Source: Tritrichomonas foetus (taxonomy: Eukaryota; Parabasalia; Tritrichomonadida; Tritrichomonadidae). Taken from it: DNA of 59,884 bases. Location: assembly GCA_001839685.1 (NCBI GenBank), contig MLAK01000602.1, positions 32,936 to 92,819 of the forward strand, given 5' to 3'. A program made the translations under genes and the position numbers. Under the pieces are notes generated by a model, which was not told the origin of the DNA, ran no database searches, and saw only the letters and a list, made by a program, of their open reading frames with translations. The stretch's first letter is position 1. Every line of letters starts with the position of its first letter. Positions 1-47,566 of the stretch are shown in pieces.

Positions 1-917
1 TGCTTCTTTAAAAAAAAAAAATTTTTTTTTTTTCTCTGCTTTAATTCTTGCTTCTTCTTCTGCCTTCAAAAAAAAAAATTCTTTTTTTTTTTTTAACAAG
101 TTCTGGTTGTTTATATTTATATTTTCAAAAAAAAAAAATTTTTTTTTTTTTTTTTCATCAGATAGATCTTTGTCTAGAGTAATTTCATTTATAACAATAT
201 CTCTTTCAATGATTTCATTTTCCAGGTCATCAGAATCTATTACATAAAAAAAAAATTCTTTTTTTTTTTCAGTGTCATTCTTTTCTTTTGGCAGGATTCG
301 TATTAAAAAAAAAATAATTTTTTTTTTTAGTTGATTATTACACTCTTCATCATTTTGGTTGTTAAAAAAAAAATCATTTTTTTTTTTATTCAATTTTATT
401 CCGCAAACTTTTACATTTTCGTAAAAAAAAAACAATTTTTTTTTTTTAATATGCCGTCCAGGTTTCCCATCAGCGCCTTCCTCGTATCGGTCAGGAAGTT
501 TTTCTTTAACTTGCAACTTCACAATTTTTGGATTATCATTATTGAAAGAATCGTCATTTTCAGCAACATCTCGAACATTACTACAAATAGTTCTACGCAA
601 AAAAAAAAACTTTTTTTTTTTTTCAGCATTTAATTGACTGCTAAGCGAAGTATTGTCTGGGTTTGATGAAACTGATATATTTGCACTTTTCTTTGACATA
701 TTTTGTTCCGGGTAATGAAAAAAAAAACGATTTTTTTTTTTCTTATTGGAATTTTCCCAGTTTTTGCTTTTTGGTGAAAAAAAAAACGCTTTTTTTTTTT
801 TATTTTTGTTGTGATTGCTCAGTGACTCACCTTGCAAAAAAAAAAGGCTTTTTTTTTTTCTTGGATTTTTATTATTTGATTCGGTTTCTTGCGAAAAAAA
901 AAAATAATTTTTTTTTT
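1..917 (-). CDS. Acidic, lysine-rich protein, C-terminus outside the window
   Basis: I do not recognise the family. One reading frame on the minus strand is supported by every unmodified piece: for example VIDSDDLENEIIERDIV near 243-190, KIVKLQVKEKLPDRYEEG near 525-470, and a Ser/Asn-rich start region (SKKSANISVSSNPDNTS) near 700-645. Composition is charged and polar with no membrane segments. Upstream of about 940 the frame meets a TAA, so the start codon is probably hidden in the block at 895-918. The gene runs off the left edge. The acidic/basic alternation suggests a nuclear or coiled protein, but that is a guess. Confidence 0.5.
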
Positions 918-2422
918 TTTGTTTACAAGTTGGTTCTTTTTATTCCGATTTGGAAAAAAAAAAGATTTTTTTTTTTTAATATTCTTAGAGATTTCCAAAT
1001 ACTGATTTAATTTTTAAATGATTTCAATTTTGAAAAAATATCGTAATATTCAATTCATTCCCAATTCAACTAAAAAAAAAATTTTTTTTTTTTTTTGGAA
1101 ATTTTTATATGCAAATTTAAAATTATTCAGAAAAAAAAAATTTTTTTTTTTTTTCATGATCAATATTGTTAAATTCATCCAGTAATCGCAAAAAAAAAAG
1201 TTTTTTTTTTTTTAGAATAAGCGCCAATAATTCTACTTGCTATCCCGTAAAAAAAAAATATTTTTTTTTTTTTAAAACATTTGCGATAAAAAATTGAAGA
1301 CAAAAAAAAAAAAAAAATCCTTTTTTTTTTTAAAGCATACCAATAATCAGAATAATTTGTCGCATTATTCCTATATTTCCATCGTGTGTAATTTTTTTGT
1401 AATTTGGCCAAATAATTGGTTTTCTAAAAAAAAAATGATTTTTTTTTTTGGAATTTCCATCAAAAAAGCGACAGCTGAATATTAAAAAAAAAAAATATTT
1501 TTTTTTTTTGATAATATAAAATTCAATTAAAGGTGATTCAAGAAAAAAAAAAATCATTTTTTTTTTTAATAATATCCTATTTTTAACTAATCATTGATAA
1601 GTAAAAAAAAAAACGTTTTTTTTTTTTGATGAGACAAAAAACATGTAATTAATCATAATAAAAAAAAAAAATGATTTTTTTTTTTAGTTCAAAATAATAG
1701 TAATAGCATTAGAAACTATTAAAAAAAAAAAAATTTTTTTTTTTACCATAACAAATTTAATCTCAGACTATCCTCTTCCAAAAAAAAAATTTTTTTTTTT
1801 TTTTTGTCACCATTTTTGGTTGGTTCTGCTGAAATAAAAAAAAAAAAAGCGTTTTTTTTTTTAGACGCAGAATTTAATTGTTCTGTTCCAATTGTTCAAA
1901 AAAAAAAATTTTTTTTTTTTTTATGCATCATCTAAAATTTTCAGAGCTTCATCATCAAAAAAAAAAGTTTTTTTTTTTTTCTCATTTTCAGCCTTCTTCT
2001 TCTGGTTTTACCATTAAAAAAAAAAGTTTTTTTTTTTTTCTTCGATATCGGTTAGACTACTTGGTCAAATTTCGAAAAAAAAAAGAATTTTTTTTTTTTG
2101 ATATTTGAAAAAAGTTCGAAATTTCCTCAAATTAAAAAAATCATCGATTGTTTTTCTCTGAAGAGACTTACCAATATACCACATGAAAAAAAAAAAAAAA
2201 AATAATTTTTTTTTTTTAATTAATTAATTATCTCCTTTCCTTTTTTCATTTAAAAAAAAAAATGTTTTTTTTTTTGACAATTGTGTAAATTTTGTGTTAC
2301 ATTCATTAATAAAAAAAAAAAGGTTTTTTTTTTTATTCGAGAAAAGATGAGGAGAAATAACAATGATAAAAAAAAAAAATTATTTTTTTTTTTTTTTTTA
2401 TCAATTTTATATTATTTCATAT
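918..2422 (-). other. Fragmentary minus-strand coding, no secure gene
   Basis: Several 35-bp pieces read as plausible protein on the minus strand (DDEALKILDDA near 1956-1924; KPIIWPNYKKITHDGNIG within 1424-1330; RLLDEFNNIDH near 1188-1156), but frames change and real TAA, TAG or TGA codons intervene outside the blocks (near 2010, 1242 and 1807). This could be one or two genes with consensus indels, or decayed copies. Pieces between about 977 and 1154 and between 1570 and 1740 look non-coding. I cannot place starts or ends. Confidence 0.3.
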
Positions 2423-3013
2423 TTAGTCAAAAAAAAAAGTTTTTTTTTTTTTGTTCACACATGAGAGGATAGATGGATTCTTTTTTGAAAAAAAAAAGAA
2501 TTTTTTTTTTTTGATCTGCCCGTCACCATTGTTGTCCATCTTTCGGAAAAAAAAAACAATTTTTTTTTTTAGCTGGTGCTTTGGCAGTTTCACGTTGCTG
2601 TTTTGAAAAAAAAAATATTTTTTTTTTTTTGATAGCTCATTCTTATCGATGTAGCCGTTTCGGTAAAAAAAAAAGACTTTTTTTTTTTATCCAGCTTTTT
2701 CGTGTAGAGTTGCCCTCGTCGACAAAAAAAAAAGCCTTTTTTTTTTTTCATAGAAATCGATTTGTTTGGAATCGTCTTTGTCAAAAAAAAAAAAATTTTT
2801 TTTTTTAAATCCACTTTTCTTAAGGCCTAAAGCATGCTCGAAAAAAAAAAAGTCTTTTTTTTTTTCGGCGATTTCCGAATTACTTACAGCTTTGAACTTT
2901 AAAAAAAAAATCTTTTTTTTTTTTACTGTGAAGCGTGTTTGTTCAGCAAGTTTAATGAAAAAAAAAAAAGTTTTTTTTTTTTTGGGAAGGCTACCTTCGT
3001 TTCCCATTTTCAA
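2423..3013 (-). CDS. EF-hand calcium sensor (calcineurin B / CBL / NCS-like)
   Basis: Calcium-binding regulatory protein of about 196 residues, the usual size for neuronal calcium sensor or calcineurin B-like proteins. After the ATG at 3013 the frame shows EF-hand loops with regular spacing: FDKDDSKQIDFYE (about residues 70-83), RNGYIDKNELS (about 118-128), and RKMDNNGDGQI (about 157-167). Between them are helices such as FEHALGLKKSGF. A C-terminal KKNPSILSCVN resembles the end of NCS/CBL proteins. The stop is a real TAA near 2425-2423, outside any block. No myristoylation signal is certain (start MKMGNEGS). The partner (phosphatase or kinase) cannot be told from sequence. About a third of residues are overwritten. 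Confidence 0.75.
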
Positions 3014-3050
3014 TTAAAAAAAAAAAAAAATTTTTTTTTTTTAATTATTT

Positions 3051-3480
3051 TTATACTTTTGGCTTCAATTCATTTTCAAAAAAAAAATATTTTTTTTTTT
3101 TTTTTGATAGTTTTTTTAGTATCAGTACATATACTTAAAAAAAAAAGAATTTTTTTTTTTAATTTTTGATATGTTTATGCCAAATTAGATTATTCAAAAA
3201 AAAAAATATTTTTTTTTTTGTTTTCAGATGATATAGAAATAACTCATAGAAATTAAAAAAAAAATGATTTTTTTTTTTAGAGGCAGTTTTAAAAATCAAA
3301 TTACTAAAATTCCAAAAAAAAAATCTTTTTTTTTTTTAAGAACTTTCAATAAAATTTGCGGTTAAGTTTTCGAAAAAAAAAACTTTTTTTTTTTTTTGAG
3401 GACATCTGCTTCTCCAAATCAAATAGATAATAAAAAAAAAAAACTTTTTTTTTTTATACGTCATCTACATTCGAGTACAT
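3051..3480 (-). CDS. Small unidentified protein with a probable frameshift
   Basis: An ATG at 3480 opens MYSNVDDV followed, after a block, by YLFDLEKQMSS. Downstream the good frame moves by one base (ENLTANFIESS, NNLIWHKHIKN, ENELKPKV then TAA at 3053-3051). The shift must lie in or next to the block at 3373-3396. About 140 residues, polar, no domain recognised. Either a consensus indel or a damaged gene. The short minus-strand ORF just upstream (3465-3728) could be its neighbour or extension. Confidence 0.3.
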
Positions 3481-3728
3481 GAGTCAACATTTTCGGAATT
3501 TGAATATAACGATTTATTATAAAAATGCACCGTCGCAGAAACCAATTTTAAAAAAAAAAAGTTTTTTTTTTTTATATCCTCCTGAACGACGACTAGATTT
3601 ACGAAAGCAAAAAAAAAACGCTTTTTTTTTTTAAATGAAATAGCTGGAATTTCGAAAACATTCCAAAAAAAAAAAAAGGCTTTTTTTTTTTTCCTTTCTT
3701 CATTCTTTTGGGATTTGATGTCATACAA
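3465..3728 (-). CDS. Short hypothetical ORF
   Basis: A minus-strand frame of 87 codons starts MYDIKSQKNEER and ends with a real TAG at 3467-3465. Pieces such as KLVSATVHFYNKSLYSNSEN are plausible protein, but the opposite strand also reads for part of the span, so the strand is uncertain. No family is recognised. Confidence 0.2.
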   Translation of the reverse strand: MYDIKSQKNEERKKKKAFFFFWNVFEIPAISFKKKKRFFFAFVNLVVVQEDIKKKNFFFLKLVSATVHFYNKSLYSNSENVDSCTRM

Positions 3729-3928
3729 AAAAAAAAGATTTTTTTTTTTTTTTTTTCGGAATGTATTTCGTATTAAAATGAGAAAAAAAAAAAAATTTTT
3801 TTTTTTTTTTCATGAATACTATGATTTGTATTGCTAAACTCAATAAAAAAAAAAATGTTTTTTTTTTTAAAGCTCACTGATGTTAAAATATTGTCGGTAT
3901 ACAAAAAAAAAAAACGTTTTTTTTTTTG

Positions 3929-4181
3929 CATCAATCAAAAATTCCATTTCAAAAATAGAAAAAAAAAAAAAATTGTTTTTTTTTTTATATTATTTTGCAA
4001 ATTAATATCAATATTTGGTTGAAAAAAAAAAAGTTTTTTTTTTTTATAATAACCTCCAGAACATGCATTTTAAAGTGGTGTATGATAAACATCAATCAAA
4101 AATTCCATTTTAAAAATAGACAATAATCATGAATTGACAAAAAAAAAAATTATTTTTTTTTTTAATTTCAATATTTGGTTG
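3929..4181. repeat. Imperfect direct repeat, unit about 160 bp
   Basis: The 30-bp string beginning CATCAATCAAAAATTCCATT occurs at 3929-3958 and again, with one mismatch, at 4090-4119. A second shared string, TCAATATTTGGTTG, sits at 4008-4021 and 4168-4181. The two pairs are 161 and 160 bp apart, so this is a two-copy tandem duplication with a one-base length difference, hidden in part by the overwrite blocks. The surrounding 3730-4458 is AT-rich, reads ambiguously on both strands and holds no secure gene. Confidence 0.6.
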
Positions 4182-4458
4182 TTGAAAAAGAAAATAGCAA
4201 AAAAAAAAAAATTTTTTTTTTTGCAAATTCGGGATATTGATATTCGAAGGGAAAATAAAAAAAAAAAGTGTTTTTTTTTTTCGATGTTCTTCACTTCGAG
4301 AAAATTGTGAAATTTTAAAAAAAAAAAAATTTTTTTTTTTGATTTCAATATTAGTTGTTTCATTAAATATGTTAAAAAAAAAAAAAAGTTTTTTTTTTTT
4401 GATTTTAGTCGATTTATTGGTATCAAAAAAATATAAAAAAAAAACGTTTTTTTTTTTT

Positions 4459-5520
4459 TCAATAGATTTCAAATAATTTTGATTCTACTTCTAAAAAAAA
4501 AAATTCTTTTTTTTTTTTTATTACTTCTAATTCTTCTTCTAAAAGATGAATAAAAAAAAAAATATTTTTTTTTTTTGAATACAGTAATGATTTTTGTGAA
4601 TATTCAACTTTAAAAAAAAAAAGATTTTTTTTTTTATTAATAGAGCCAAACGCCATCGAATATTCCAGAAAAAAAAAAAAAGATTTTTTTTTTTTAATAT
4701 CGGGATTGTTTTCATAAAATGATGGCATAAAAAAAAAAATTATTTTTTTTTTTTCTTTTAGTGAAATAAAATCGATGAAACGATTCACAAAAAAAAAACG
4801 ATTTTTTTTTTTGATTTGGTTTTATGAGTGAATTTGTCTGAGAATTTAAAAAAAAAATTCTTTTTTTTTTTCAATTATTGAATTTTATTCTTGTAATTGA
4901 TCATTGAAAAAAAAAAATTTTTTTTTTTTTATGAATTGTTTTTTTAGTCTTTCATACAATATTGTATTAAATTTTTGGATTTCTGAATGAAAAAGTAGAA
5001 AAAGATTTTTATTTCGAAATGCAAAAAAAAAAAACAGTTTTTTTTTTTTGAAAATACCTTCTTCAACAAGGAAAAATAATAAATGTTTGTTTGGTATGAA
5101 AATTAGAAATAATGTTAATTGATTTTTAATGAATGTTTCAAAATTAATTCCCTTAAAATAATCAAAAAGATATCTTGTCTTTTAGCAACAATTTCTTCAT
5201 CAAAAAAAAAAGGGTTTTTTTTTTTAATCGAAAGATGAACAAAAATGCGAAGAAATGCTTAAAAAAAAAAAAATTTTTTTTTTTTAGAGATTTTTTCAAA
5301 GTATTGAAAAAGATCTTTGAAAAAAAAAAAAGTTTTTTTTTTTGATTTAATACCTGAAAGAATGAAAATCATATTCCTAAAAAAAAAATGTTTTTTTTTT
5401 TTATCATTCCTAAACTCTGAGATTCCAAATAATTCCAAAAAAAAAAAATCTTTTTTTTTTTAGGGTCAAAATAGTTGAATTATTGCCGCTTTTTATAAAA
5501 AAAAAATATTTTTTTTTTTT
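4459..5520 (-). CDS. Ankyrin/DUF3447-like trichomonad protein, frameshifted
   Basis: Minus-strand pieces give a leucine-rich helical protein: RNMIFILSGIK, KDLFQYFEKIS, DEEIVAKRQDI, YFKGINFETFIKNQL, FRNKNLFLLFHSEIQKFNT, then MPSFYENNPDI, LEYSMAFGSIN and EVESKLFEIY before a real TGA at 4461-4459. The pattern of short helices with SFYENNPD and EYSMAFGSIN is like the large trichomonad families with DUF3447 or ankyrin repeats; that assignment is from general resemblance. Around 5165, inside unmodified sequence, the reading frame slips by one base, so either the consensus is wrong here or the gene is broken. The start is probably masked near 5500. Confidence 0.4.
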
Positions 5521-5784
5521 AACAAAAAAAAAAAAAAAAAAATTAATAAGGGTTGAAAAAAAAAAAAATTTTTTTTTTTAAAAAAAAAAAATGTGAGGAC
5601 TTTTTTTGGTGAAGAAAAAAAAAAGTATTTTTTTTTTTAATTTTTCAATATAAGTAATCACTAAAATTCACCTAAAAAAAAAAACTTTTTTTTTTTTAAT
5701 TATACTTAAAAACCTAAATATCTTGTACAATAAAAAAAAAAATGATTTTTTTTTTTCATGAATAAATCATATTTTAATATGTAA

Positions 5785-8742: not shown

Positions 8743-8909
8743 AAAAAAAAATTGTTTTTTTTTTTAATTCTATTATGACGCTTTTTCTGGCTTAATATGG
8801 AAAAAAAAAATATTTTTTTTTTTTTACATTTAAAAAATTGTGAAACGTGATTTTTTCAATTTCATCGAACAGATTATCCATTCAATTTTATCAAAAAGCC
8901 ATTCAGAAT

Positions 8910-9959
8910 ATGCGATTCAAAAAAAAAATCATTTTTTTTTTTAATGATTTATCGTCCAAGGTGAAAATTAACCATACTCCAATTGAGGTTAATTATCCAT
9001 CAGTTTAGGTAAAAATTGTGCAGTTATTGAAACGAAAAAAAAAAAATTCTTTTTTTTTTTCAAGTTATTATCCGAAAAAATCACAATGGAGTCCAAAAAA
9101 AAAAAAAATTTTTTTTTTTAATGTGGCATGCATTTTACCTCCCGACTTAGATGAAAAAAAAAAACATTTTTTTTTTTTACGGTTTCAATTTGAAGAGGTT
9201 CAATATAAGCTCAAAAAAAAAAATGATTTTTTTTTTTTTTCTCAAAAATTTGAAACATTCAATAAAAGAGAAAAAAAAAAAAAGCTTTTTTTTTTTCCAA
9301 TGATAAAATTGAAAGATAGATTACTTGTTGAAAAAAAAAAAATTTTTTTTTTTTTTCAGAAAATTTATCCTCCTTTTATCGATAATTATGAAAAAAAAAA
9401 TCGTTTTTTTTTTTAATTCACATCAACACCAAAAGTAATAAAACAAGTTAAAAAAAAAACTCTTTTTTTTTTTGAGTTGATCTTCGGTACTAATGGGAAA
9501 CGAGCTCGAAAAAAAAAAAAATTTTTTTTTTTTCAGCTGAAATTCCAATCAGAAGCACCTGAAAGCCAAAAAAAAAAGAGTTTTTTTTTTTGGAAGGAAT
9601 TTGGCCACTTCACAATCAAAGGAAACAAAAAAAAAAAAGTTTTTTTTTTTTATCATTTTATTTTAGAAATCATGAAAAGTGGATCAAAAAAAAAATACTT
9701 TTTTTTTTTGAAAAAGAAAAAATCAGGAAATATTTCCTATTCTGAAAAAAAAAAGTCTTTTTTTTTTTCACAAATAAATAATATTAATTCGAATAACGAT
9801 GAAAAAAAAAAAAAATTTTTTTTTTTTAATTTACCTGAATTATCAGCCTATTTAATTGATGCAAAAAAAAAAGATTTTTTTTTTTTAGAAGATGAAGAAA
9901 TTAATGAAAAAGATTATTTTGAAAAAAAAAAAAATTTTTTTTTTTCTGGAGTAGACTGA
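8910..9959 (+). CDS. Unidentified basic/hydrophilic protein with one in-frame TAG
   Basis: Plus-strand frame from a possible ATG at 8910 (MRF), then NDLSSKVKINHTPIEVNYPSV, a TAG at 9006 outside any block, and KIVQLLKR onwards to SGVD and TGA at 9959. Further pieces are NVACILPPDLDE, LRFQFEEVQYKL, KIYPPFIDNYE, FGTNGKRAR, QLKFQSEAPESQ and an acidic C-terminus (LEDEEINEKDYFE). The middle could be a beta-rich DNA-binding fold, but I recognise no family. The TAG may be a consensus error; otherwise the protein would have to start after it, at 9018 with a GTG. Confidence 0.45.
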
Positions 9960-10099
9960 CAAGTTTTTGTTATTTATATTCGGTATTTGTTTAAACTATT
10001 AATCTTTGATCTAGAAATAAATGTTTATTCTTTCACAATAAAAAAAAAAGTATTTTTTTTTTTCACGAAATATAAAAAATTTAAATAAAGAACAGAAAA

Positions 10100-23210: not shown

Positions 23211-26200
23211 TTTTTTTTTTTATCGAATAGTTCAATATTTCCACTTTGAATTAAAAAAAAAAAAATAATTTTTTTTTTTACTTTATAATACATTTAGTAA
23301 CAAACATATAAACAAAAAAAAAAAACGTTTTTTTTTTTCGCTCGGCTTGTTTGAAACCAAAGAAATCATAGCCAAAAAAAAAAACATTTTTTTTTTTCAA
23401 AGATTGTTGAGAAAGTGATTCAAGAAGCATTTAAAAAAAAAAGCCTTTTTTTTTTTCTGTAATATTCACATTTTTGCCTTCATTCATACATAAAAAAAAA
23501 AATATTTTTTTTTTTTTTTCATCATAAACAACTGTACAACCGAAACTTAAAAAAAAAAAATTTTTTTTTTTTTTATAGAACCTAATTGCATAGTAGCCAA
23601 TTGGAATTCAAAAAAAAAATTTTTTTTTTTTTTGAACAATAGAAATACCACAGTTTTGGTTCACTGGAAAAAAAAAAATATTTTTTTTTTTTTTTGGATT
23701 ATCAAAAATCCTGACAAGCTCTTTTATAAAAAAAAAACTTTTTTTTTTTTTTTCTAAAAATGAAAGATCTCTTAAACAATCAGGCAAAAAAAAAAAAATT
23801 TTTTTTTTTTCTTTTTTATATTCAACTTCTATTTTTTCTAAATCTAAAAAAAAAAACCTTTTTTTTTTTAGTCCTTTAAGTAAACATAAAGATGCAAATC
23901 CTTCAAAAAAAAAAATTTTTTTTTTTTTGTAATCAAATTTAGTTTTCCACCATGATGGTGCACAAAAAAAAAAACTTTTTTTTTTTTTACTCTTACGATT
24001 TGATATATCTCGGACTATATTTAAAAAAAAAACAATTTTTTTTTTTTGATTAGCTAAAGCTATTAAAACTTCTTGGTTTATAAAAAAAAAATCATTTTTT
24101 TTTTTTGGCTTAATACCTTTTAATAATTTTAATAAAACTGAAAAAAAAAATGATTTTTTTTTTTTAATCGAATAAACCATAGCAATAATGATTTCTTTAA
24201 AAAAAAAAATTATTTTTTTTTTTTTTTGGAGCTTAGACCAAAGTACGTCTTGGTTCACAAAAAAAAAAGGATTTTTTTTTTTATATAAAGCTCGAACAGC
24301 TCGTAAAATATTTATTTAAAAAAAAAATCGTTTTTTTTTTTTTGGATGATAAAAATCAAACCATTTTATTGGTTTTAAAAAAAAAACTGTTTTTTTTTTT
24401 TCTTCTGGAATAAATAATTCTAATTCTGAAATTACAAAAAAAAAACTTTTTTTTTTTTTATTTACAGTAAGGACATGATCATGTGAAGACAAATAAAAAA
24501 AAAATAATTTTTTTTTTTATATTTCATTATCAGTTTCAGACATTTTATTCTTAAAAAAAAAAAAAATTTTTTTTTTTTCATAATGTTCATTCCAATACAT
24601 AGGCATTGTCATAAAAAAAAAAAAATTTTTTTTTTTATTATTAAATGTGGGTGTACACATGAATGATAAAGAAAAAAAAAATCTTTTTTTTTTTTATATT
24701 TTAGCCATTGAACCTGCAATGTCATTATGAAAAAAAAAAATTATTTTTTTTTTTCTGGAAAGTGGTTCTCTCCTTAACACTGCTTTTGTAAAAAAAAAAC
24801 CTTTTTTTTTTTTTTTAATCTTTTTCATATAAATCTTTAAAAGCTTTTAAAAAAAAAAATCTTTTTTTTTTTATAAAGCATAAAGTAATGATGCAATAAG
24901 AAAATCAAAAAAAAAAAGTTTTTTTTTTTTTTTTCGAGCTTCATAACATCCATAATCAATCATAGAATCTGCAATATTAGATAATACATTTTTGGGCATA
25001 TCAATAGTGTCAACATGGAATGAATAAAAAAAAAAAAATTTTTTTTTTTAAAAATCAGGTAAATCAATTTGGCCAGGATAAAAAAAAAAAAAAATTGTTT
25101 TTTTTTTTAAGGTTTTTTCAAGTGATTCGGATGCAAAACTTTGAAAAAAAAAACCATTTTTTTTTTTATGCGCATTTCTTCGAATTAGCATATCTAAATC
25201 ACAAAAAAAAAAAGTTTTTTTTTTTTTCTCAACTGAAAATCTAATAAATAAATCCTCTTCAAAAAAAAAAAGAGTTTTTTTTTTTTAAATTGCTCGCTTC
25301 TTCATTGGTGGGGTATAGTGACTATCATAAATAATTGCGACATCAGCATTTGTATTATCGACTGTAAATTTGGATATACAAAAAAAAAAAACTTTTTTTT
25401 TTTTATTATAAAGTCGAGGTTGACCACTTCCAGCATTGAAAAAAAAAACATTTTTTTTTTTTTTCTTTTGTAAATATACTTCCAATAAGCTCACCATAAA
25501 AAAAAAATGTTTTTTTTTTTTAACACGTCGATTGGCATTTCTTAATCTATTAATTAAAAAAAAAAAAACTTTTTTTTTTTCTGAGGACTTAATAATTAGA
25601 TTTACTTCATGTTGTAAAAAAAAAATACTTTTTTTTTTTTTTTCTAAACTATCAAGTTCTTCTTTCCATAAATTAAAAAAAAAAAAATTTTTTTTTTTAA
25701 TTTTCCTTAATTGAAAAAGATGATGTGCTAAACAAAAAAAAAATAGTTTTTTTTTTTTGTTATCAAGAAAATAAGATTTAAATTGATCATGTAAAAAAAA
25801 AAATGTTTTTTTTTTTATGATGACTTCTTCTTGATTGTTATTTCGTAAAGGAAAAAAAAAATCATTTTTTTTTTTTAAAACGTATTTTCTATTTTCTCCA
25901 TCATTTAATTAAAAAAAAAAAATTTTTTTTTTTTTTTTTTCATATTCATTTCGAAAATCTTCTAGTTGTAAAAAAAAAACTTTTTTTTTTTTTTTGAAAA
26001 TAGTGAATGCTGATTCAGTTCTCAGTTTAAAAAAAAAAACTTTTTTTTTTTTAATCATATGATCAAATGAAAACTGACTTAAAAGTTAAAAAAAAAAAGC
26101 TTTTTTTTTTTGTTTTAAAATAATTTCATCAGCTATTAGGCACAGCAAAAAAAAAACATTTTTTTTTTTTCAATGATCTTTAAGTGTTTCAAATGAAGTA

Positions 26201-27105
26201 ATTACAAAAAAAAAATTCTTTTTTTTTTTATTATTATCGGTAAAAATACAATATTGATTTAAAAAAAAAAAAAATTCTTTTTTTTTTTTAAAATTTAAAA
26301 CTCGGAGATTTGTCCATTTTTCTATTTCATCTTCCCACTTATTCACACAAATGAGTGGTGCAACAATCAAATATGGGCCATGAAAAAAAAAAATATTTTT
26401 TTTTTTTTCAATAAAAGTAATACTTTGAACTGTTTTTCCAACGCCCGACTCATCCGCTAAAATAGAATTATTATTATAATGCCATTTATCTAAAAGCCAA
26501 AAAAAAAAAACAATTTTTTTTTTTGTAAGCCTGTTTTTGTTTTTATAGACCACATTATTAAAAAAAAAAATATTTTTTTTTTTTTCTTGAAATTGAGTTG
26601 TTGATTGATACTCAACTGAAAAAAAAAATTCTTTTTTTTTTTTATATTTAAATATAATTTCTTCGGGAATATTTTTGAAAAAAAAAATGGTTTTTTTTTT
26701 TGGAAGATCTTTCCATTGGACAAAAAAGTAAGTTTTAAAAAAAAAAGTTTTTTTTTTTTTAATCCTTGATGGAATAAAAAATGATTCTTTGAAAAAAAAA
26801 AAAAATGGTTTTTTTTTTTCACGAACAAATGAAACTGGTGATAATTTTGATGTTAAAAAAAAAATTTTTTTTTTTTTTAGAAGCTGAGTAGAATACGCTG
26901 GAATATCTTCAAGAAAAAAAAAAGAGTTTTTTTTTTTTTCTGAGTATTTTTTGTTTTTGAGTTTGACATAAAAATGAATGTTTGGATTATCAATCGAAAA
27001 AGTGTTACTGTTAATTCCAATAATGAATTCGAAAAAAAAAACTATTTTTTTTTTTCCGCTGTCTGCTGTTGGATGAGAAGAAGATTCGTGTGGATAAGTC
27101 ATCAA
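23185..27105 (-). CDS. CHD-type chromodomain SNF2 helicase
   Basis: ATP-dependent chromatin remodeller of the CHD1/CHD3 group. About 1,306 residues from ATG 27105. Two chromodomain-like units: FYVKLKNKKYSE with LEDIPAYSTQLL (about 40-75) and TYFFVQWKDLP with NIPEEIIFKY (about 130-160). SNF2 ATPase: WLLDKWHYNNNSILADESGVGKTVQ (about 205-225, Walker A GVGKT), PYLIVAPLICVNKWEDEIEKW, ADEIILK where DEAH is expected, LLSQFSFDHMI, LAHHLFQLRKI. Helicase C: RLRNANRRV, MVSLLEVYL, VDNTNADVAIIYDSHYTP (about 585). The apparent stop at 26172-26170 uses block bases. The same frame runs on through YWNEHY and LSSHDHVLTVN to a real TAG near 23187; that 450-residue tail could be a SANT-like C-terminus or a separate gene starting at 24543 (MSETDNEI). 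Confidence 0.75.
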
Positions 27106-27192
27106 TTTTTTTTATTTGACCATATGAATCAAAAATTGACCATAACCGGAAAAAAAAAAGGATTTTTTTTTTTGAAGTAAAAAGTGCATTTT

Positions 27193-32025: not shown

Positions 32026-34629
32026 TTAATCGATATCTAATAGATAGCTGTATTTTGAATTTTTGATTGATTCCTTAATTTTTGGTCTCTTTCCAAGAAT
32101 GAGAAAAAAAAAAAATCGTTTTTTTTTTTTGGCAAGAAATGCAATAAGCCACCTTACCCAGTTAAAAAAAAAAATTTTTTTTTTTTTTTCAGTGATCACT
32201 CGTTTGGATATTATTTCATTTTTAAAAAAAAAAGTTTTTTTTTTTTTGAGTGTAATTACATCGAAAGATGAATCAATATTTTAAAAAAAAAACAATTTTT
32301 TTTTTTGTGGCTTTCCAACTTTTCTAGCAAGTGCTAAAGCTAAAAAAAAAAGATTTTTTTTTTTTGAATCAATTAAACACTGAACAAATGAATTCTCAAA
32401 AAAAAAAAAAAATTTTTTTTTTTTTCCTTCACCCTTTTCAAATACAGGCTTTAAATACTAAAAAAAAAAATTTTTTTTTTTTTGATTCATGATATTTTGT
32501 CGAAGTAATAAAATAGCAAAAAAAAAAACAATTTTTTTTTTTTCTTCATCCATAATATATTTGAGTAGGCCAGATGCAAAAAAAAAAGCATTTTTTTTTT
32601 TTACAAATGTTGTAAGTTCATTCTTTGTTTGTTTTTAAAAAAAAAAAAATTTTTTTTTTTAATCAGATGGTGAATGTCCGAATATTTCTGGGAACAAAAA
32701 AAAAAATTTTTTTTTTTTTCTATCAGACTTAGTAAGAACTAAATCACTTGCTAGAAAAAAAAAAAATTTTTTTTTTTTTCCATATTGTTGAATTAAAGAT
32801 AGCATTTTAGGTGAAAAAAAAAAATTTTTTTTTTTTTGTTGGTAATTAAATTCGGACAAATACGGATGGAGAAAAAAAAAAACTATTTTTTTTTTTACCA
32901 TTGGTAATGATTGGAATTGGTAAATTGGAATAAAAAAAAAATTATTTTTTTTTTTAATGTCATCTAGAGTATTCAAAAAGCAAAAAGCGAAAAAAAAAAA
33001 CGTTTTTTTTTTTTTCAAAACATTTAAGGATTCATCAACAAAGAAATCAAAAAAAAAAATTGTTTTTTTTTTTGTTTTCATCCCACCAATTTTTGTAGAT
33101 AACAAAGTAAAAAAAAAAAAATTTTTTTTTTTTAATCTTCTTGAAAAACATGGAATGATTTTCTTAGAAAAAAAAAAATTTTTTTTTTTTTTTGCCCTCA
33201 ATTTCTTGGAATCTTCTCGTGTGATAAAAAAAAAAACTTTTTTTTTTTTTGTAATAATTGAACTATCTGCCGAAATCCAATATGGAAAAAAAAAAAGTTT
33301 TTTTTTTTTATGCATTTCTAATCCGGAAGGAACTGACGGTTTTAAAAAAAAAAATGATTTTTTTTTTTCAAAATAGTTTAAAACGCATAAATTAATGTTA
33401 CACAAAAAAAAAACAATTTTTTTTTTTTCAGGATGTGTTGATTTATACCATTTATTCGAACTAAAAAAAAAAATATTTTTTTTTTTGTTTCCAAAACATG
33501 CTATATGTGATTTTCCAGCTGAAAAAAAAAAAATTTTTTTTTTTTGAGCAAGTGATTGATCATCAAGATTATTGCAAATTAAAAAAAAAACATTTTTTTT
33601 TTTTTTTGTTTCATATATTGCTGTTTGAGTATAATAATAATTATTTTCTGCATGTTTTAATAATTGGTATAATAGAATTCCTTTTGTGCTTGATATGTAA
33701 AAAAAAAAACGTTTTTTTTTTTCGCACAAACAATCTGGTATATTGCTTCGTTCAATAAAAAAAAAAATTTTTTTTTTTTTTGAAAATTTAGAAATTCGCG
33801 ATGGCCCAATTAAGAAAAAAAAAAAATCATTTTTTTTTTTATGTAATTTTAATGAATCATTATATGGAACAATAGAAAAAAAAAAATGTTTTTTTTTTTA
33901 TTTAAATTTGGTATTATTCGAAAGATTAGCAGAGAAAAAAAAAACACTTTTTTTTTTTATAGAAAAATAGGAATCATGCTCAAGTGAATGTGCAAAAAAA
34001 AAACTTTTTTTTTTTTTAAGTTTGTTTGCATCAATAGTATGTGAGCTGTTTTGATCATCCGAATTAGTGGTATAAAATTCGTCTGTCACCAAAAATGTAT
34101 AAAGTGATCCATCTGCGCATTGGAGGAGACAATTATGGTTAGCCAAATAAATTTTCTTGATTGGCTGGTTAAAAAAAAAATATTTTTTTTTTTTCATTAA
34201 CTCGGGCGACATTATGATCAGATTTCCTTAAAAAAAAAAACCTTTTTTTTTTTTGTCTTTTCCAATGGCCGCTGTGAAGTTTGAATTCAAAAAAAAAAGG
34301 ATTTTTTTTTTTAATGCAATTCTAGAATTTTCGAATGAACAAAATATAATTTTTCCCAATGTAGTGAAGCAAATAAAAGTCTTATTGGTCATCCACGAGC
34401 AATAAAAAAAAAAAAAATATTTTTTTTTTTGCTGTGAAGTTTGTTTAAGTTTGGTTATTATTGGCAAAAAAAAAATGTTTTTTTTTTTTATCGAAATAGA
34501 TGTCGGAGAAAGGGCAAGAAGAAAAAAAAAAAAAGGTTTTTTTTTTTTATCGATTGTGGGGTCGCCGCCTGGATGTGAAATAAAAAAAAAAAATACTTTT
34601 TTTTTTTATTTATTTATATTTGGCATCAT
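32026..34629 (-). CDS. RCC1-like/beta-propeller protein with helical C-terminus
   Basis: About 867 codons from an ATG at 34629 (MMPNINK). The N-terminal half shows repeated strand units with glycine and aspartate turns: KKIYLANHNCLLQCADGSLYTF, ICNNLDDQSLAQ, AGKSHIACFGN, SSNKWYKSTHPE, PYWISADSSII, like RCC1-type propeller blades. The C-terminal part is helical (FVDESLNVL, CFLNTLDDI, ALALARKVGKP, ENSFVQCLID, YLKPVFEKGE, ILLLRQNIMN, LLKYIMDE), reminiscent of RCC1-BTB proteins. Real TAA at 32028-32026. Exchange-factor activity is not shown. 31,754-32,025 has no gene. Confidence 0.35.
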
Positions 34630-38565: not shown

Positions 38566-38655
38566 TCAAATTTTGTCGAACGAATCGACTCTAAACTGCC
38601 AAAGATAAATTTTAATTCAATTATTTAACAACCACGAAATATTTCAGTGAATTTA

Positions 38656-39126
38656 AAAAAAAAAAAATTTTTTTTTTTATATACAAAAAAATTATCTGAT
38701 TCAAAAAGTTTACAAAAAAAAAATCCTTTTTTTTTTTTCGCTATAGAAGAATTTTTAGTTCTGATTGTCTCAAATATAAGATCTGCTTATTTAGTTAATT
38801 TGAGAAATTCACCAAATGGTCGCCTTGATAAAAAAAAAAAAAAATTTTTTTTTTTAAACTTTGTAATTTTAGAAAAGATTCAAATATTTAAAAAAAAAAA
38901 AAATTTTTTTTTTTAAAGATTATTTCAATAGTTAAAATTGAAGTGCTTCAAAAAAAAAAAATTTTTTTTTTTTATCAAAGTATGAAAATTAATGGAATGA
39001 GCAGACTTAAAAAAAAAATAATTTTTTTTTTTTGGGTGTTTCTTGTAAAAAATAGTTTTGAAATCATAAAAAAAAAACAATTTTTTTTTTTTGAATCCGA
39101 GAAAATTTATTTTTCTCGAACATCAT
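38656..39126 (+). CDS. Small hypothetical protein
   Basis: Plus-strand pieces YTKKLSDSKSL, AIEEFLVLIVSNIRSAYLVN, LNFVILEKIQIF, KIISIVKIEVL, YQSMKINGMSRL, VFLVKNSFEII and SEKIYFSRTS form about 155 residues of alternating strands and helices. The start is masked at 38655-38678; the final stop overlaps block bases. Not recognised; a small alpha/beta domain such as a roadblock- or profilin-like fold is possible. Confidence 0.3.
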
Positions 39127-39270
39127 AAAAAAAAAAATGTTTTTTTTTTTTTGTGCTTATATCATTATATTTCCTTTATCATAATAAAAAAAAAAGCATT
39201 TTTTTTTTTTTCATGAAATTTCCAAATATGATTATTTAGATTAAAAAAAAAAAATCCTTTTTTTTTTTAA

Positions 39271-40035
39271 TTACCAGTACCAATCAGAGTTTCTTTTTAA
39301 AAAATAATGGCCAGCTTCTTCAATTGAATCAAAATATATTTGCGGATTGTGGTTTGGATAACAAAAAAAAAAATTTTTTTTTTTTTCAAAAACGAGAGGA
39401 ATTGGTAATGAGTTCATCTCTAAAAAAAAAATCGTTTTTTTTTTTCTGATATCCTTTACAACAAAATTTTCTGTACCATTAAAAAAAAAAGAATTTTTTT
39501 TTTTGTTTCGACCATAATATTCACCATAGTATTCACTAAAAAAAAAAAAATCTTTTTTTTTTTTACTATCATTCCCTTCATTATTGTTTTCATTTCCAAA
39601 AAAAAAAATGTTTTTTTTTTTTTTGTCGCTACTATCTTTTCGCTTAGTAGATTGTGAAAAAAAAAAATTTTTTTTTTTTTTAACATTGGAAATATTTTCT
39701 ACATTATTGGAAGTGTAAAAAAAAAATTGTTTTTTTTTTTCGTCAGTAATTTTGGCTGCTTCGAGTATGATTGAAAAAAAAAAAATTTTTTTTTTTTTTC
39801 CATTTCGTGATTGAGCCATAATAACAGCTTGAATAATGTCCCCATCTTTTAGACCATACATAAACATTGGAGTATCGTCGTGAAGTAATAAATAAAAAAA
39901 AAATAGTTTTTTTTTTTCGTTGGGTCCTGATGCGAACCGTAGCATGTTTTGAAAAAAAAAAAATGTTTTTTTTTTTTGCAAAAGAATAGGCAAAATCGAG
40001 CCATCGGGCCATTGAATTCGAATATGATTAAGCAT
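39271..40035 (-). CDS. Protein with N-terminal ubiquitin-like domain
   Basis: 254 residues, complete frame from ATG 40035 to TAA 39271. The start MLNHIRIQWPDGSILPILL with LLLHDDTPMFMYGLKDGDII (about residues 1-65) has the strand-helix-strand pattern and the late L-DGD turn of ubiquitin-like folds. The middle is polar and Asn/Ser/Lys rich (STKRKDSSD, NENNNEGNDS, EYYGEYYGRN). The C-terminus YPNHNPQIYFDSIEEAGHYF looks folded. No protease or E3 motif seen; it may be an adaptor for ubiquitin-like interactions. Confidence 0.5.
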   Translation of the reverse strand: MLNHIRIQWPDGSILPILLQKKKTFFFFQNMLRFASGPNEKKKLFFFYLLLHDDTPMFMYGLKDGDIIQAVIMAQSRNGKKKKIFFFSIILEAAKITDEKKKQFFFYTSNNVENISNVKKKKNFFFSQSTKRKDSSDKKKKNIFFFGNENNNEGNDSKKKKDFFFFSEYYGEYYGRNKKKNSFFFNGTENFVVKDIRKKKTIFFLEMNSLPIPLVFEKKKNFFFCYPNHNPQIYFDSIEEAGHYFLKRNSDWYW

Positions 40036-42291
40036 TAAAATATAATAAGATTGATAACTAAAAATATTTCAAAAAAAAAAATTTTTTTTTTTTTTCATTC
40101 TTTTCTGAGTATATGTAGTCATATAGTGAAAAAAAAAAACCATTTTTTTTTTTAAAAAGTGTAGAACGAAAAATTTCAATGTACACATAAAAAAAAAATG
40201 ATTTTTTTTTTTTCAAATGGTTATAATCTATTAACTTTTTGATAATAAAAAAAAAAATCATTTTTTTTTTTTTTTTCTCTTAATAATTGAATGAGAATAT
40301 TTAAGAAAAAAAAAAAATTTTTTTTTTTTTAACCAAATAGTCTTAACGTACGAAATCACTAAAATAAAAAAAAAAATCTTTTTTTTTTTATACCATCAGT
40401 CAAAAATCAAAACCCAAATAGCTAAAAAAAAAAAGAATTTTTTTTTTTTCGCAAACTTCGCAAATGGCCGAATTCAAAAATATAAAAAAAAAAATTTTTT
40501 TTTTTTTATTGTTTCAGTTTTCGGGTGATAAGTCTTTCAGTCAAAAAAAAAATCTTTTTTTTTTTTTTATGAGCCATATTTATTCATAGTTTTGAAATTT
40601 TAAAAAAAAAAAACTTTTTTTTTTTCGATTTTGGAGAAAGCATAAAAAAAAATTGTGAGAAAAAAAAAAACCATTTTTTTTTTTGATTATAATACTGCTT
40701 CCCATAATTCTATTTACACAAAAAAAAAAGATTTTTTTTTTTTAATCGCGAAAATTTTGATAGTTTTAACTCAGTGATAAAAAAAAAATTCTTTTTTTTT
40801 TTGACAAATATGAATGTATTGAAATCTTTTCTGTCATAAAAAAAAAATATTTTTTTTTTTTAGACTGGCAGTCCTCAACAGCACATTCTCAAGCAGAAAA
40901 AAAAAAACATTTTTTTTTTTACCAAATCAAGAAAAATGGAATCCAATATGTTTTTAAAAAAAAAAGATTTTTTTTTTTTTTTCTGATGACTCGCCATTTA
41001 GATGGCAAAACATTAAAAAAAAAATCATTTTTTTTTTTATTTTTTTTATTTATATCAAAATTATTAATATTTTAAAAAAAAAACATTTTTTTTTTTTGGA
41101 AAACATTATAATTTTCGATGGAGGGCCATATGAAAAAAAAAAGCATTTTTTTTTTTAAGAAATAATCAAGATATTAATGCTATAAAATCACAAAAAAAAA
41201 ATATTTTTTTTTTTTATTTCTGTGGGGTTTATTTTTTTCTCACAATTTTTAAAAAAAAAAGGTTTTTTTTTTTTCTTGATTTTTAAATTATAATATTTAT
41301 ATATTATTAAAAAAAAAAAAATTTTTTTTTTTTTAGATGACAATAATATCAACAATTATTCATTTAGAAAAAAAAAAAGTCTTTTTTTTTTTGAGCTAGT
41401 TAGTTTGTATACATCTAACAAATTTCTAAAAAAAAAAGAATTTTTTTTTTTTAAATTCAGAGAACGAAATATTTATTAATGCGATAAAAAAAAAAAAAGT
41501 TTTTTTTTTTTATAATGATATCTTGCTTGAAAATATATATTTCTGACTATTACTAGGTTTGTATTTATTTAATCTATCAAAATAGTAAATATTCATAAAA
41601 TTACAAAAAAAAAAAGATTTTTTTTTTTCATTTTTCATAGATAATTTCTTTTTTGTATTCCCAAAAAAAAAAAATCTTTTTTTTTTTAACTTCTGCTTTG
41701 AATGCTCTATGATTTAAATTTACAAGTCGTGAGGAGACTTAAAATTACAAATCTTACTGTCAATGAAGTGCATTTAATATTAAAAAAAAAAAGGTTTTTT
41801 TTTTTTATATTTCGCATAATAAGTATTATTGGTTATATTTAAAAAAAAAAATGTTTTTTTTTTTATCTCGCTATTAATTGGAATGTACCAAAATTATCAA
41901 AAAAAAAAATAATTTTTTTTTTTTACATAAATGTTGTTGAGAAAATATAAGAGAAAACAAAAAAAAAATCGTTTTTTTTTTTTGATTAAAATACATGAAT
42001 GAAAATTTGGCAAGTTTCTCTGGGGTAGAATGATTGAAACAATATTTTAGTCTAGTATTTGGAAACTTTTCTTAATAAAAAAAAAAATATTTTTTTTTTT
42101 ACCCATGATTTGTGGTTATTCACAAAAAGTTGGCAAAAAAAAAAAATATTTTTTTTTTTATTACTTGACATGTACTTTATGATTTAGATATTCAAAAAAA
42201 AAAAGGCTTTTTTTTTTTCGATTTGCCGATTATTTCAACAACACGTTTATCTTAAAAAAAAAAAATTTTTTTTTTTTTACTCATAAATCAA
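40036..42291. other. 2.3-kb stretch with no secure gene
   Basis: AT-rich, blocks continue on the 59-bp grid. A short minus-strand frame at 40058-40261 is weak. Pieces near 40,860-41,030 are slightly less AT-rich but carry stops in all frames. I see no RNA gene, transposon end or repeat that I can support. Confidence 0.5.
42281..42286 (+). promoter_or_regulatory. Initiator-like TCATAA
   Basis: TCATAA lies 11 nt before the ATG at 42292 in unmodified DNA and fits the trichomonad initiator TCA(+1)YW. Confidence 0.4.
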
Positions 42292-43494
42292 ATGATCGGA
42301 CCCTCTATTTGCAAAAAAAAAATGTTTTTTTTTTTTGGTATTGCAATTGGCCCAATTATTACCGTTTTAACAAAAAAAAAATCCTTTTTTTTTTTGTTTC
42401 TTTATACGAAAACGATGGCCAACTATCATCAAAAAAAAAATGATTTTTTTTTTTACAGAATATTTGGTCGTGCTATCAGTTTGATTTTTAAAAAAAAAAT
42501 TGTTTTTTTTTTTTTATTTGTTCAAGTCTCACAGTTTCACTACTTTTGAAAAAAAAAAGGTTTTTTTTTTTTATATTATGAACCAACTGCTCCAGATGTC
42601 GTTCTTGAAAAAAAAAACATTTTTTTTTTTTTTTTGCTTATTTACATCATTCCATGGATTCATACCATTTCACTTAAAACAATGTTTGCGATTGCTGTTT
42701 TTGGAATTACAGCCATATTTTTCTTAAAAAAAAAAGTTTTTTTTTTTTTTGCAGTTGAAAAAACAGCTAAATCGCCAACAGATGAAAAAAAAAATTCTTT
42801 TTTTTTTTACACAATTAGATGTTTCACTTTAATGACTTATTCAAAAAAAAAAATTCTTTTTTTTTTTCCAGGGATTCGTCATTTAAAACATAACTCGACA
42901 CGAAAAAAAAAAGTTTTTTTTTTTTTAGCTATCTCTTTTGCTGTTCTCGTCATCTTTTTTAAAAAAAAAAAAAGTTTTTTTTTTTCTGAGATTGTTTACG
43001 CAAATACAGACACAATCAAAAAAAAAAAAATATTTTTTTTTTTTTTAATTCTTGCTTCGAGTATTCCTGCCTTGATGAAAAAAAAAAAATATTTTTTTTT
43101 TTTCTGTTTCTTACGGCTAACAAGCGTCGATCCAACAAAAAAAAAAAACTGTTTTTTTTTTTTCGAAGTTGGTGCTCTTGTTTTGAGTTCTTTGTTTGAT
43201 AAAATGATGCAATTCATGGAATTTTTCTTGTCAACCTTTTCTGTACTTTTGGCACAAAAAAAAAAAGCTTTTTTTTTTTTGATCACTTTTAAGACTTCTT
43301 CGTATCTCCATTTTAAAAAAAAAAAAATTTTTTTTTTTTTCTGCATTGTAATGGTTATACTGAATGCTCTTTATAAAAAAAAAATGTTTTTTTTTTTTGA
43401 TAAACTTGTATTATTTTTTTTAGAATGTGTTTTAAAAAAAAAATTGTTTTTTTTTTTAATGTGTTTTTCTTTAGAATGTTTTTCACAAACATAA
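42292..43494 (+). CDS. Polytopic membrane protein
   Basis: About 400 codons from ATG 42292 (MIGPSIC). Hydrophobic segments recur: GIAIGPIITVLT, RIFGRAISLIF, LIYIIPWIHTI, TMFAIAVFGITAIFFL, AISFAVLVIFF, LILASSIPALM, EVGALVLSSLF, MEFFLSTFSVLLAQ, IVMVILNALY, LVLFFLECVL. Loops include YYEPTAPDVVL and PGIRHLKHNSTR. About ten segments suggest a transporter (MFS or similar), but no family motif is clear because of the overwritten residues. The TAA at 43492-43494 includes block bases; the frame could continue to a TAA at 43564-43566. Confidence 0.5.
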
Positions 43495-43566
43495 AAAAAA
43501 AACCATTTTTTTTTTTTTTCCGATCGATATGTAAAAAATGTTTTTTTGGTGGCAACCGATAAATAA

Positions 43567-45947
43567 AATAATCAGAACATAACTAAAAAATTCCATCTAA
43601 AGTCTTCTTTAAAAAAAAAATTGTTTTTTTTTTTCAATTTCTAGTCGTTTTTGTCAACCAAGACTTTGAAAAAAAAAAAATTTTTTTTTTTTTTGTGAAG
43701 TTTAAAGGCTAAAATTCAGATTTAGAAGAAAAAAAAAAAGCTTTTTTTTTTTATTACCAAAATTTGGGAAACAATATTTTATTTGGATGAAATATTTGAG
43801 AGTTGATTCATAAGATTTTGTTTCCAGGTATAAAGAGCGCATGGGATGTAAAAATATCAAACACTTCAATGACAATTTTCTAAATATGGCGAAAATGAAT
43901 TCATTAAAAAAAAAAGTATTTTTTTTTTTAAATATTGTTAGAAAAATGAATATTAATAATAAAAAAAAAAAAAATCTTTTTTTTTTTTGAAAATAAGAAA
44001 ACATTGAATCATATTCGAAAGATAAAAAAAAAATCCTTTTTTTTTTTTTTTTCGAAAAATTAAGAATTAGTTGATTGCAAATAATTGAGTAAACGATTTT
44101 TAGTGCGTAATGTATCGAATCGAAAAATCATTACATTTATTAAAAAAAAAAGGGTTTTTTTTTTTAATTAAATATATGTGAAACACTATATACTTTTGAA
44201 AAAAAAAAAACTTTTTTTTTTTTTAAAATCTTTGATTTCATTTTTATCATCAAAATTAAAAAAAAAAAAAATTTTTTTTTTTTAATGAATCTAGTATTTT
44301 ATTTGTACCTTTAAACATAAAAAAAAAATTATTTTTTTTTTTTGAAGTCATTTCAATAATCATCGGACAATAATGATAAAAAAAAAAATATTTTTTTTTT
44401 TAGAATCTATATAAATTCAAAAGAAGAACAAGTTATAAAAAAAAAATCATTTTTTTTTTTTATTTCATATTATCTTATCGTTAAATGAGTGGCAAAAAAA
44501 AAAAATTCTTTTTTTTTTTGTAGAGTGATTAAATTGAAATGAAGACTTTAGAAAAAAAAAAAAATTGTTTTTTTTTTTCAAAAAAATTGTGAAGAAAAAA
44601 ATCGCATGTGAGCAAAAAAAAAAGATTTTTTTTTTTTGTCCAATTTGGAGAGATAAGCATATTAAATAGATTAAAAAAAAAATGATTTTTTTTTTTGATC
44701 AGAAATTTATATTCAACTGTTTTGAATGCACAGAAATTTTTCCGGAGGAATAAGCTGACGGCAATTGATGATTAATAATGAGGCCCAAAAAAAAAAAAAA
44801 TTTTTTTTTTTTTTCACATGATCCAAAAAATGTGTATCATTTCAAAGTGAAAAAAAAAAATTTTTTTTTTTTTTCGGAGATTTAGAAAAGAGGTAATTTA
44901 CAGCTATAAAAAAAAAAAATCTTTTTTTTTTTTGTATTTTAACGATATATATTATAATATATTCCTAAAAAAAAAAATATTTTTTTTTTTTTTAGTAGCA
45001 GTACGAAATAAATAGAAAATAAACAAAAAAAAAAAATGTTTTTTTTTTTTTTTTACAAATTTTATGAAAAAGTTGAAATGAAAAGAAAAGTTGAAACCTC
45101 CTTAACCACGGTATTTATTTGGAAAGTTATGAGAAAATATAAATAAAAAAAAAATTGTTTTTTTTTTTTTCTTTTAGAAAACTTTGTAGAAGTTGAATGA
45201 GATTTTATTGAATTTTTGAAATGTATGAAAAGATTATTGTTCAGAAATCCATCATGTATTGTAAAAAAAAAACATTTTTTTTTTTTACATGAAAAGTGGA
45301 TTTACATAATTCAAAATTATAAAAAAAAAAATTGTTTTTTTTTTTAACTACTTTTGTATATCTTCTTAACAATTTAAATTAAAAAAAAAACTATTTTTTT
45401 TTTTTTAAATCTGCTGATTCTATTTCAAAAGTGAATGATAAAAAAAAAACTCTTTTTTTTTTTTATCTTTTTAATGAACGATTCAAATTAGATAAATAAA
45501 AAAAAAAAAGTTTTTTTTTTTTTTTCAAAAAAGTTCTACTATTCCAATATATTTTTTAAAAAAAAAATAATTTTTTTTTTTACAACTTATTTCTCATTGA
45601 TCCAATTCCTAAATTCAAAAAAAAAATAATTTTTTTTTTTGTCAATTTTTTGAAGAATTTTCCAGAATATTCAAAAAAAAAAAAAAATTTTTTTTTTTTA
45701 GGTCTTGTTGAATTTCAATTATTACAATTGAAAAAAAAAAAAAAGATTTTTTTTTTTTATTTTCAATTTTGCAAAACTGATCTATGAATTTTGAAAAAAA
45801 AAACAATTTTTTTTTTTAATTTTGAATTGTTTAGTTTGATGTTATGATGTGTAAAAAAAAAAATATTTTTTTTTTTAAATTGAATATTTTTATTCACATT
45901 GATTCCATTTTAAAAAAAAAATATTTTTTTTTTTTTTTTTGAAAAAT
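43567..45947. other. 2.4-kb stretch with no secure gene
   Basis: Blocks continue on the grid. A minus-strand ORF at 43702-44004 has one long unmodified piece (RKLSLKCLIFLHPMRSLYLE) that is faintly protein-like, but it is isolated. The rest carries stops in all frames. Nothing else is recognised. Confidence 0.45.
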
Positions 45948-47201
45948 ATGTTCAACCAGTATGAGGGCGAAAAAAAAAAAACCTTTTTTTTTTTTATCAT
46001 AACTGGTAAGCTTGGCTCAGGATCCTTCGAAAAAAAAAATTCTTTTTTTTTTTACGTCACGGGTGTTCCAGCCGCTCTCAAATGTATTAAAAAAAAAAAA
46101 TTTTTTTTTTTTGACGACCTCAACATGCTTCAACGTGAAGTAAACCTAAAAAAAAAATTGTTTTTTTTTTTTGTCACGACCTTATATGAAATTTTGGAAG
46201 ACGATTAAAAAAAAAATTTTTTTTTTTTTTTTGTCGAAAATGGAAACCTTCTCGACTTCATTAACGTCCACATGGGTCTCCAAGAGGAACAGGCAAGGCG
46301 AATCTTTGTCCAACTTATTACAGTAAAAAAAAAATTGTTTTTTTTTTTCTGTATTGTTCATCGTGATCTCAAAGCCGAAAACGAAAAAAAAAATAATTTT
46401 TTTTTTTTCAGATTGGTCGACTTTGGCCTATCAAGAGCATTTAAAAAAAAAAATCTTTTTTTTTTTACAACCTGCGGATCGCCGGCCTACCTCGCGCCAG
46501 AAAAAAAAAAAGAGTTTTTTTTTTTAGCAACTGCCGATATTTGGTCGATTGGTGTCCTTCAAAAAAAAAAGGTTTTTTTTTTTTTTCCATTTGGAGGAGA
46601 AAACATTTCAGCCCTTTTGAAAAAAAAAATGATTTTTTTTTTTCTCATTCCAAACTGCCTCAGTCCAGAACTCAGGCAAAAAAAAAAAAGATTTTTTTTT
46701 TTGGATCCAAACCTTAGAATTACCCTCAAAGAAATCGAAAAAAAAAAATGTTTTTTTTTTTTCGCAGACAGCCGCATCTTTGACGATAAGTTCGGCAAAA
46801 AAAAAACACTTTTTTTTTTTAATCCGCAGGAGCTTGATTCCGCAGTCGTCAGCGAAAAAAAAAAACTCTTTTTTTTTTTAGCTGGTTTAATTAGTGATCT
46901 GACCGGTTATAAACAAAAAAAAAAAACTTTTTTTTTTTAAATGCTCAGGCGGCAGAGAGCATCAGAGGAAATCAAAAAAAAAAAGATTTTTTTTTTTAAG
47001 AGAGAAAACATCGCCAAAAGCACATCCGAACTAAAAAAAAAATTGTTTTTTTTTTTTCCGACCGCAATTTCTCCTTCAAGCAATAACAACCAAAAAAAAA
47101 AAAATTTTTTTTTTTTGTACGGAAAGAGAGGTGGGCCCGTCCCCATTCTCGTCCGAACTCGGAAAAGTGTACCTCTAATTACGGAAACCAAGCCTTTCTG
47201 A
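45948..47201 (+). CDS. CAMK-group serine/threonine protein kinase
   Basis: Complete kinase, 417 residues, with ATG at 45948 (MFNQYEGE). Glycine loop GKLGSGSF (about residues 21-28, the last glycine masked), VTGVPAALKCI (ATP-site Lys about 46), LQREVNL, VTTLYEILEDD, NGNLLDFINVHMGLQEEQAR, IVHRDLKAEN (about 137-146), LVDFGLSRAF (DFG about 159), TTCGSPAYLAPE (about 174-185), ADIWSIGVL, PFGGENISALL. The tail includes DLTGYKQ, MLRRQRASEEI and GKRGGPVPILVRTRKSVP with TGA at 47199-47201. The TAA at 46938-46940 begins with a block base and is ignored. All core catalytic residues that can be seen are intact. Closest in style to AMPK/MARK-like trichomonad kinases; substrate unknown. Confidence 0.85.
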
Positions 47202-47515
47202 AAGACATCAAAAAAAAAATCATTTTTTTTTTTTATAAAAAATAGATCACGAAGAAGATAGAGATGATAAAAAAAAAACACTTTTTTTTTTTATAAAAAT
47301 TATAAAAAAAAGAAAAAGAAATTGAATAAAAAAAAAATGTTTTTTTTTTTTAGTTTACACCTCATTTGTTAGAATCACTCATGTAGAAAAAAAAAATTAT
47401 TTTTTTTTTTACGTTAATAAACATATGACTTATTTTATTAAATTTAAAAAAAAAAATTTTTTTTTTTTTCTTTAGTAGTTTCTTCTTAAGAATTTCCAGC
47501 TTTCAAAAAAAAAAT

Positions 47516-47517
<2 letters not shown>
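47202..47517. other. Intergenic, last grid blocks
   Basis: No gene. Blocks centred at 47221, 47280, 47339, 47398, 47457 and 47516 keep the grid to its end. Confidence 0.5.

Positions 47518-47566
<49 letters not shown>
47518..47566. repeat. 49-base T run ending the overwritten region
   Basis: The T arm of the last block (centre 47516) continues without a break to 47566. The next expected block (centre 47575) is absent and everything to the right is clean, so this run marks a junction, probably between two sequence sources or two consensus segments. Confidence 0.85.

Follow-up and report, generated by a model that had tools for sequence, protein, structure and literature searches.

Contig C212 of the Tritrichomonas foetus assembly (92,819 bases, in an assembly of 63.7 Mb and 1,064 contigs) raises the question of whether a block of ten A, three intervening letters and eleven T, returning every 59 bases over 47.5 kb, belongs to the DNA of the organism or was written into its record. 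The window, i.e., the whole stretch of 59,884 nucleotides analysed here, covers bases 32936-92819 of this contig, and coordinates without a contig name refer to it. A lattice site is defined by a block start at 10 modulo 59, equivalent to a block centre at 21 modulo 59, and 806 such sites fit up to position 47505.

10..47528, no strand assigned: lattice tract, A10-N3-T11 at 727 of the 806 sites 10+59k

In 59-base steps the exact blocks of the window run from the first at 10 to the last at 47505-47528, and the sites past 47505 to the window end are without any exact A10-N3-T11 block. The written bases number 15,267, or 32% of the lattice tract. Over both strands the motif gives 1,469 matches in the window (902 forward, 567 reverse); 100 shuffles of the window that preserve dinucleotides give 0.37 on average. 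Two of the forward matches start out of phase by 3 bases, both within longer runs at occupied sites, and every run of at least eight A within 6 bases of at least eight T starts less than 30 bases from an occupied site in the window. The first-pass annotation had described a drift-free 59-base lattice with centres at 21 modulo 59, and the 727 exact blocks, all in register, bear it out. Its remark that every block checked obeys this pattern holds for the register, which is exact throughout; to be added is that 79 of the 806 sites (9.8%), which it did not mention, have no block. That the blocks disregard genes is likewise confirmed, occupied sites (727/806) following one modulus across coding and non-coding DNA.

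The letters at the 79 empty sites are of native composition and the register continues unbroken across them; a partly written block is found perhaps only at 2134 (8/10 A, 8/11 T). Placement of the empty sites in the window is no different from random: adjacent empty pairs number 5 (7.6 in shuffles), pairs two sites apart number 10 (7.7 in shuffles) and the variance ratio is 0.87 (0.85 in shuffles). Neighbour counts, bins and site-index moduli from 2 to 119 brought out no rule behind them. Spacers within the lattice tract have a GC content of 0.309, central triplets one of 0.320 and empty sites one of 0.306, and the 38 unwritten positions of the 59-base unit are flat and native in composition throughout. 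By 2-kb bins, GC across window positions 1-46000 falls to 0.17-0.24 versus 0.31 in the untouched letters. A scan of the window for tRNA genes and Rfam families returned no tRNA and no family reaching its gathering score.

Whether the blocks replace native bases or are inserted among them can be read from a gene near the end of the tract.

45948..47201, plus strand: protein kinase gene, 19 whole blocks inside, with frame and length kept

The gene has two in-frame stops, made by or adjoining blocks. Its 417 codons align to the 416 residues of a close relative, P0001 (ENA source), with a single gap of one residue. Agreement is found at 230 of 257 untouched codons and at 6 of the 107 in which all three bases are written; partly written codons fall to 10 of 26 with one base written and 5 of 26 with two. 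Over the open frame 46209-46937, a 236-residue alignment without gaps agrees at 136/144 untouched and 3/62 overwritten codons. The contrast extends to the best 120 of 845 kinase relatives (7,485/13,788 untouched vs 547/5,387 overwritten), of whose listed alignments 18 are ungapped and 102 have at least one gap, as expected of distant relatives. It also extends to two kinases encoded at other places in this genome (91/144 vs 7/64 and 90/141 vs 7/62). A second close copy of the window kinase was not found in that genome, the next match being 45% identical. As far as sequence comparison reaches, these alignments show length-preserving, one-for-one overwriting in the kinase gene.

Two other open frames in the tract bear on the same point or cross many blocks.

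39274-40035, minus strand: open frame used for a second replacement test, two relatives, many alignment gaps
26173..27111, minus strand: open frame crossing many blocks, SNF2-related domain PF00176 (E 7.7e-18)

Against its two relatives the first frame agrees at 83/131 and 79/132 untouched positions and at 4/32 and 3/33 overwritten ones; judged from alignments with so many gaps, it bears out the contrast and not the preservation of length. Pfam matched two of the seven lattice frames searched (the kinase and the SNF2-related frame) and left five without a match. Because the register is unchanged where a block is missing, the kinase frame is kept and the spacers have native composition, the blocks are taken to replace bases and not to be added; in the remainder of the tract, register and composition are the grounds for inferring that replacement is one for one. 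Insertion of a repeated element is rejected, given the kept register, the native composition and the preserved length of the kinase.

The protein database offers a view of whether the damage is present in the public copy of the contig. Past the end of the lattice lies an undamaged gene with an entry there.

48631..49914, minus strand: undamaged gene for cyclase-associated protein, its protein from the window's own contig being in the protein database

The entry P0121 is the cyclase-associated protein of the window contig and is 100% identical. Named relatives in the kinase and cyclase-associated protein searches are parabasalids (Tritrichomonas, Trichomonas). Among the 27 listed relatives of the latter protein, for which only candidates sharing most words were scored, T. 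vaginalis (53%) is the only named parabasalid. The gene is adjoined by another on the minus strand (50569-55413), whose 1,614-residue product has an adenylate/guanylate cyclase domain (PF00211) at its C-terminal end and numerous hydrophobic segments resembling membrane spans. The kinase search admitted lengths between 0.55 and 1.75 times 243 residues, a range that takes in a clean kinase of 417 residues, and none of the 120 best matches to the kinase frame is a kinase from the window contig. Heading the matches is a single-member cluster, located on contigs no longer than 7,070 bases. A clean public copy should have stood there instead; since the cyclase-associated protein is listed and the kinase is absent from the best 120, the lattice is likely to be present in the deposited, public record as well. 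The corresponding search with the frame 39274-40035 recovered its two relatives but no copy, native or latticed, from the window contig, although the native length may lie outside the range searched.

A scan of the parent assembly for the same motif, which the first-pass annotation had proposed, yields 15 matches outside the window (8 of the 910 forward matches in the whole 63.7 Mb, and 7 of the 574 on the reverse strand). One such match, on C129, led to another lattice; in all, three further tracts were found, differing from the window in stride or letter.

C129:26743-64490, forward T: second lattice, T12 blocks every 45 bases at 13 modulo 45
C203:5539-25809, forward T: pure-T tract of 20,271 T, T in every piece read
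C432:22296-29920, forward T: pure-T tract of 7,625 T, T in both pieces read

Between 26743 and 56100 on C129, 609 of the 650 sites that could be scored have the T12 block; the later pieces, which reach 64500, have it at 42 of 43. The empty sites of C129 cluster, 14 of 29 sites being empty between 46318 and 47578 versus 27 of 621 elsewhere, and four single N stand beside the cluster. A single N also occurs at position 59750 of the window, in otherwise clean sequence, as on C129 and other stretches. The 27,775 forward T82 positions of the assembly resolve into the two unbroken runs of 20,271 and 7,625, with 41 positions left over. In the whole assembly T100 is followed by A, C or G at 0, 1 and 1 forward ends and at no reverse end, so that the runs on C203 and C432 are the only T or A runs of at least 100 bases that end in another base. 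These two tracts may be gaps filled with T instead of overwritten native sequence.

The extent of such damage was gauged from homopolymer counts. Forward T12 positions number 49,195 versus 16,959 in reverse, and the four tracts account for about 30,013 of the excess of 32,236 (the share of C129 being partly extrapolated); the remaining 2,223 or so may mark another damaged contig. A bias of T runs to one strand everywhere (T33 at 32,168 forward vs 4,003 reverse positions) was considered and rejected, the excess lying almost wholly on C203 and C432. Runs of C10 are few and scattered (45 forward, 46 reverse), with no sign of a lattice made of C or G blocks of such length, and a search for T12-N11-T12 does not separate lattices from long T runs. 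No lattice is seen in 15 other stretches with readable sequence, namely two of C1, one each of C2, C3, C9, C60, C100, C150, C200, C250, C300 and C400, and three that together cover C212:1-25930; C30:1-9900 (all N) and C600:1-9900 (9,530 N) were left out of this count, being mostly N. At least four contigs are thus affected, with a total of about 113 kb from first block to last T.

The four tracts share their boundaries, which in the window are as follows.

1..9, no strand assigned: bases ahead of the first block, adjoining the end of a run of 7,006 N (C212:25930-32935)
47518..47566, plus strand: T49 run closing the lattice, its first 11 T being the T half of the last block

The tracts on C212, C129, C203 and C432 start 9, 32, 13 and 2 bases, respectively, after an N run, which need not be an assembly gap. 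All four known tracts end in poly-T: T49 on C212, T38 on C129 and the ends of the pure-T runs on C203 and C432. Beyond the pure-T runs of C203 and C432 the sequence continues as GTT and CTT microsatellites, and beyond the T49 of C212 as unique sequence. Among five isolated T or A runs of 49-88 bases, T52 and T49 adjoin a GTTT or GTT repeat and T56, T88 and A59 do not. In both lattices the terminal T run starts at a block start; because the T of the block itself sets the start, this coincidence tells no more than that a longer run sets in inside the last block or immediately behind it. The presence of a long run at that point is more telling. Outside the pure-T tracts T33 occurs at about 4,336 forward and 4,003 reverse positions, or roughly 1 in 7,600 (8,339 of 63.7 million, both strands), and at this rarity a long T run closing both lattices is not chance. 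The tracts behave like single assembly contigs with an unclosed gap on one side and a poly-T run on the other, an argument that would be weaker if the N runs were not assembly gaps.

The favoured reading, at a probability of roughly four in five, is that blocks of ten A and eleven T at fixed positions, which replace native bases in the gene compared, were written by assembly or gap-closing software and are absent from the DNA of the organism. A technical overwrite had been put forward as most likely by the first-pass annotation and is supported here by the one-for-one replacement in the kinase gene and by the further tracts: three of them, with another stride or letter, lie in the same assembly and all run from N to poly-T, which points to a technical origin. 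A gap-closing or consensus program handling a contig flanked by an unclosed gap and a poly-T run would stall at the poly-T and would write into the contig either the homopolymer letter T (A on the other strand) or a default letter for positions with no evidence. It would write at a fixed stride on C212 and C129 and without a break on C203 and C432; where the stride does not exceed the block length, a tract would turn into pure T. The clustered empty sites of C129, however, do not fit a simple stride.

Damage might instead have arisen in the reads, certain cycles being called T, or N later turned into A or T, and carried into the consensus. Missing calls are commonly filled with homopolymer letters, and the window shows both strands in its A10 and T11. 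Reads, however, start at various places, so that a register locked to the contig over 47.5 kb would need pseudo-reads cut at a fixed step, and the strides differ among contigs of one assembly; this origin is improbable. A change of letters after public release, for example during the preparation of a data set, would account for the scripted look of a lattice present at about 90% of sites on a fixed modulus. Against it stand the three other damaged contigs with their poly-T bounds and the protein database, an independent product of the contig, which has no native kinase among the 120 best matches, and such a change appears just as improbable. A biological alternative is very unlikely. It would require a drift-free 59-base A10/T11 array over genes, together with kindred 45-base T12 and multi-kilobase poly-T arrays, made in the physical DNA by an unknown templated process anchored on poly-T. 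The genome does hold long poly-T and poly-A runs, as the T33 counts attest. The blocks, however, wipe out conserved kinase residues and leave neighbours and frame intact, the 806 sites show no drift by insertion or deletion, the other tracts differ in stride and letter, and almost no matches occur elsewhere in the 63.7 Mb, all of which makes a physical array scarcely credible. To our knowledge, such an A10/T11 array, if physical, would have no precedent.

Among known phenomena, errors of assembly and gap filling in draft genomes resemble the tracts in their bounds of N runs and homopolymers, in affecting contigs and not genes, and in the homopolymer filler; they are unlike them in the strict stride over 47.5 kb and the native letters kept between blocks. 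No title reporting such a fixed-stride pattern, or a program that yields it, was found in a literature search that covered titles only, with most subscription papers outside it. A tandem repeat or satellite, which shares the fixed unit length, is rejected, as only the 21 written bases recur and the units are not alike along their whole length, the other 38 positions being flat and native. Phased A-tract arrays and nucleosome-positioning poly(dA:dT) likewise have A and T runs at regular distances. The helical turn of DNA is 10.5 bases, and 59 is not a whole number of turns. Unlike such arrays, the lattice has a period of 59, shows no drift and cuts through a conserved gene. Known A-tract phasing follows the helical period of 10-11 bases (PMC3940949, PMC4132750).

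The result merits a notice to those working with the assembly, and little beyond that. A fixed-modulus scan for homopolymer blocks would reveal such damage in other draft genomes. In T. foetus, gene callers may lose proteins in the damaged tracts, and those who use the assembly for studies of gene content, codon use or A/T tracts should mask them. The tracts look like ordinary sequence, yet most likely come from software, leaving genes broken on paper only and the composition distorted.
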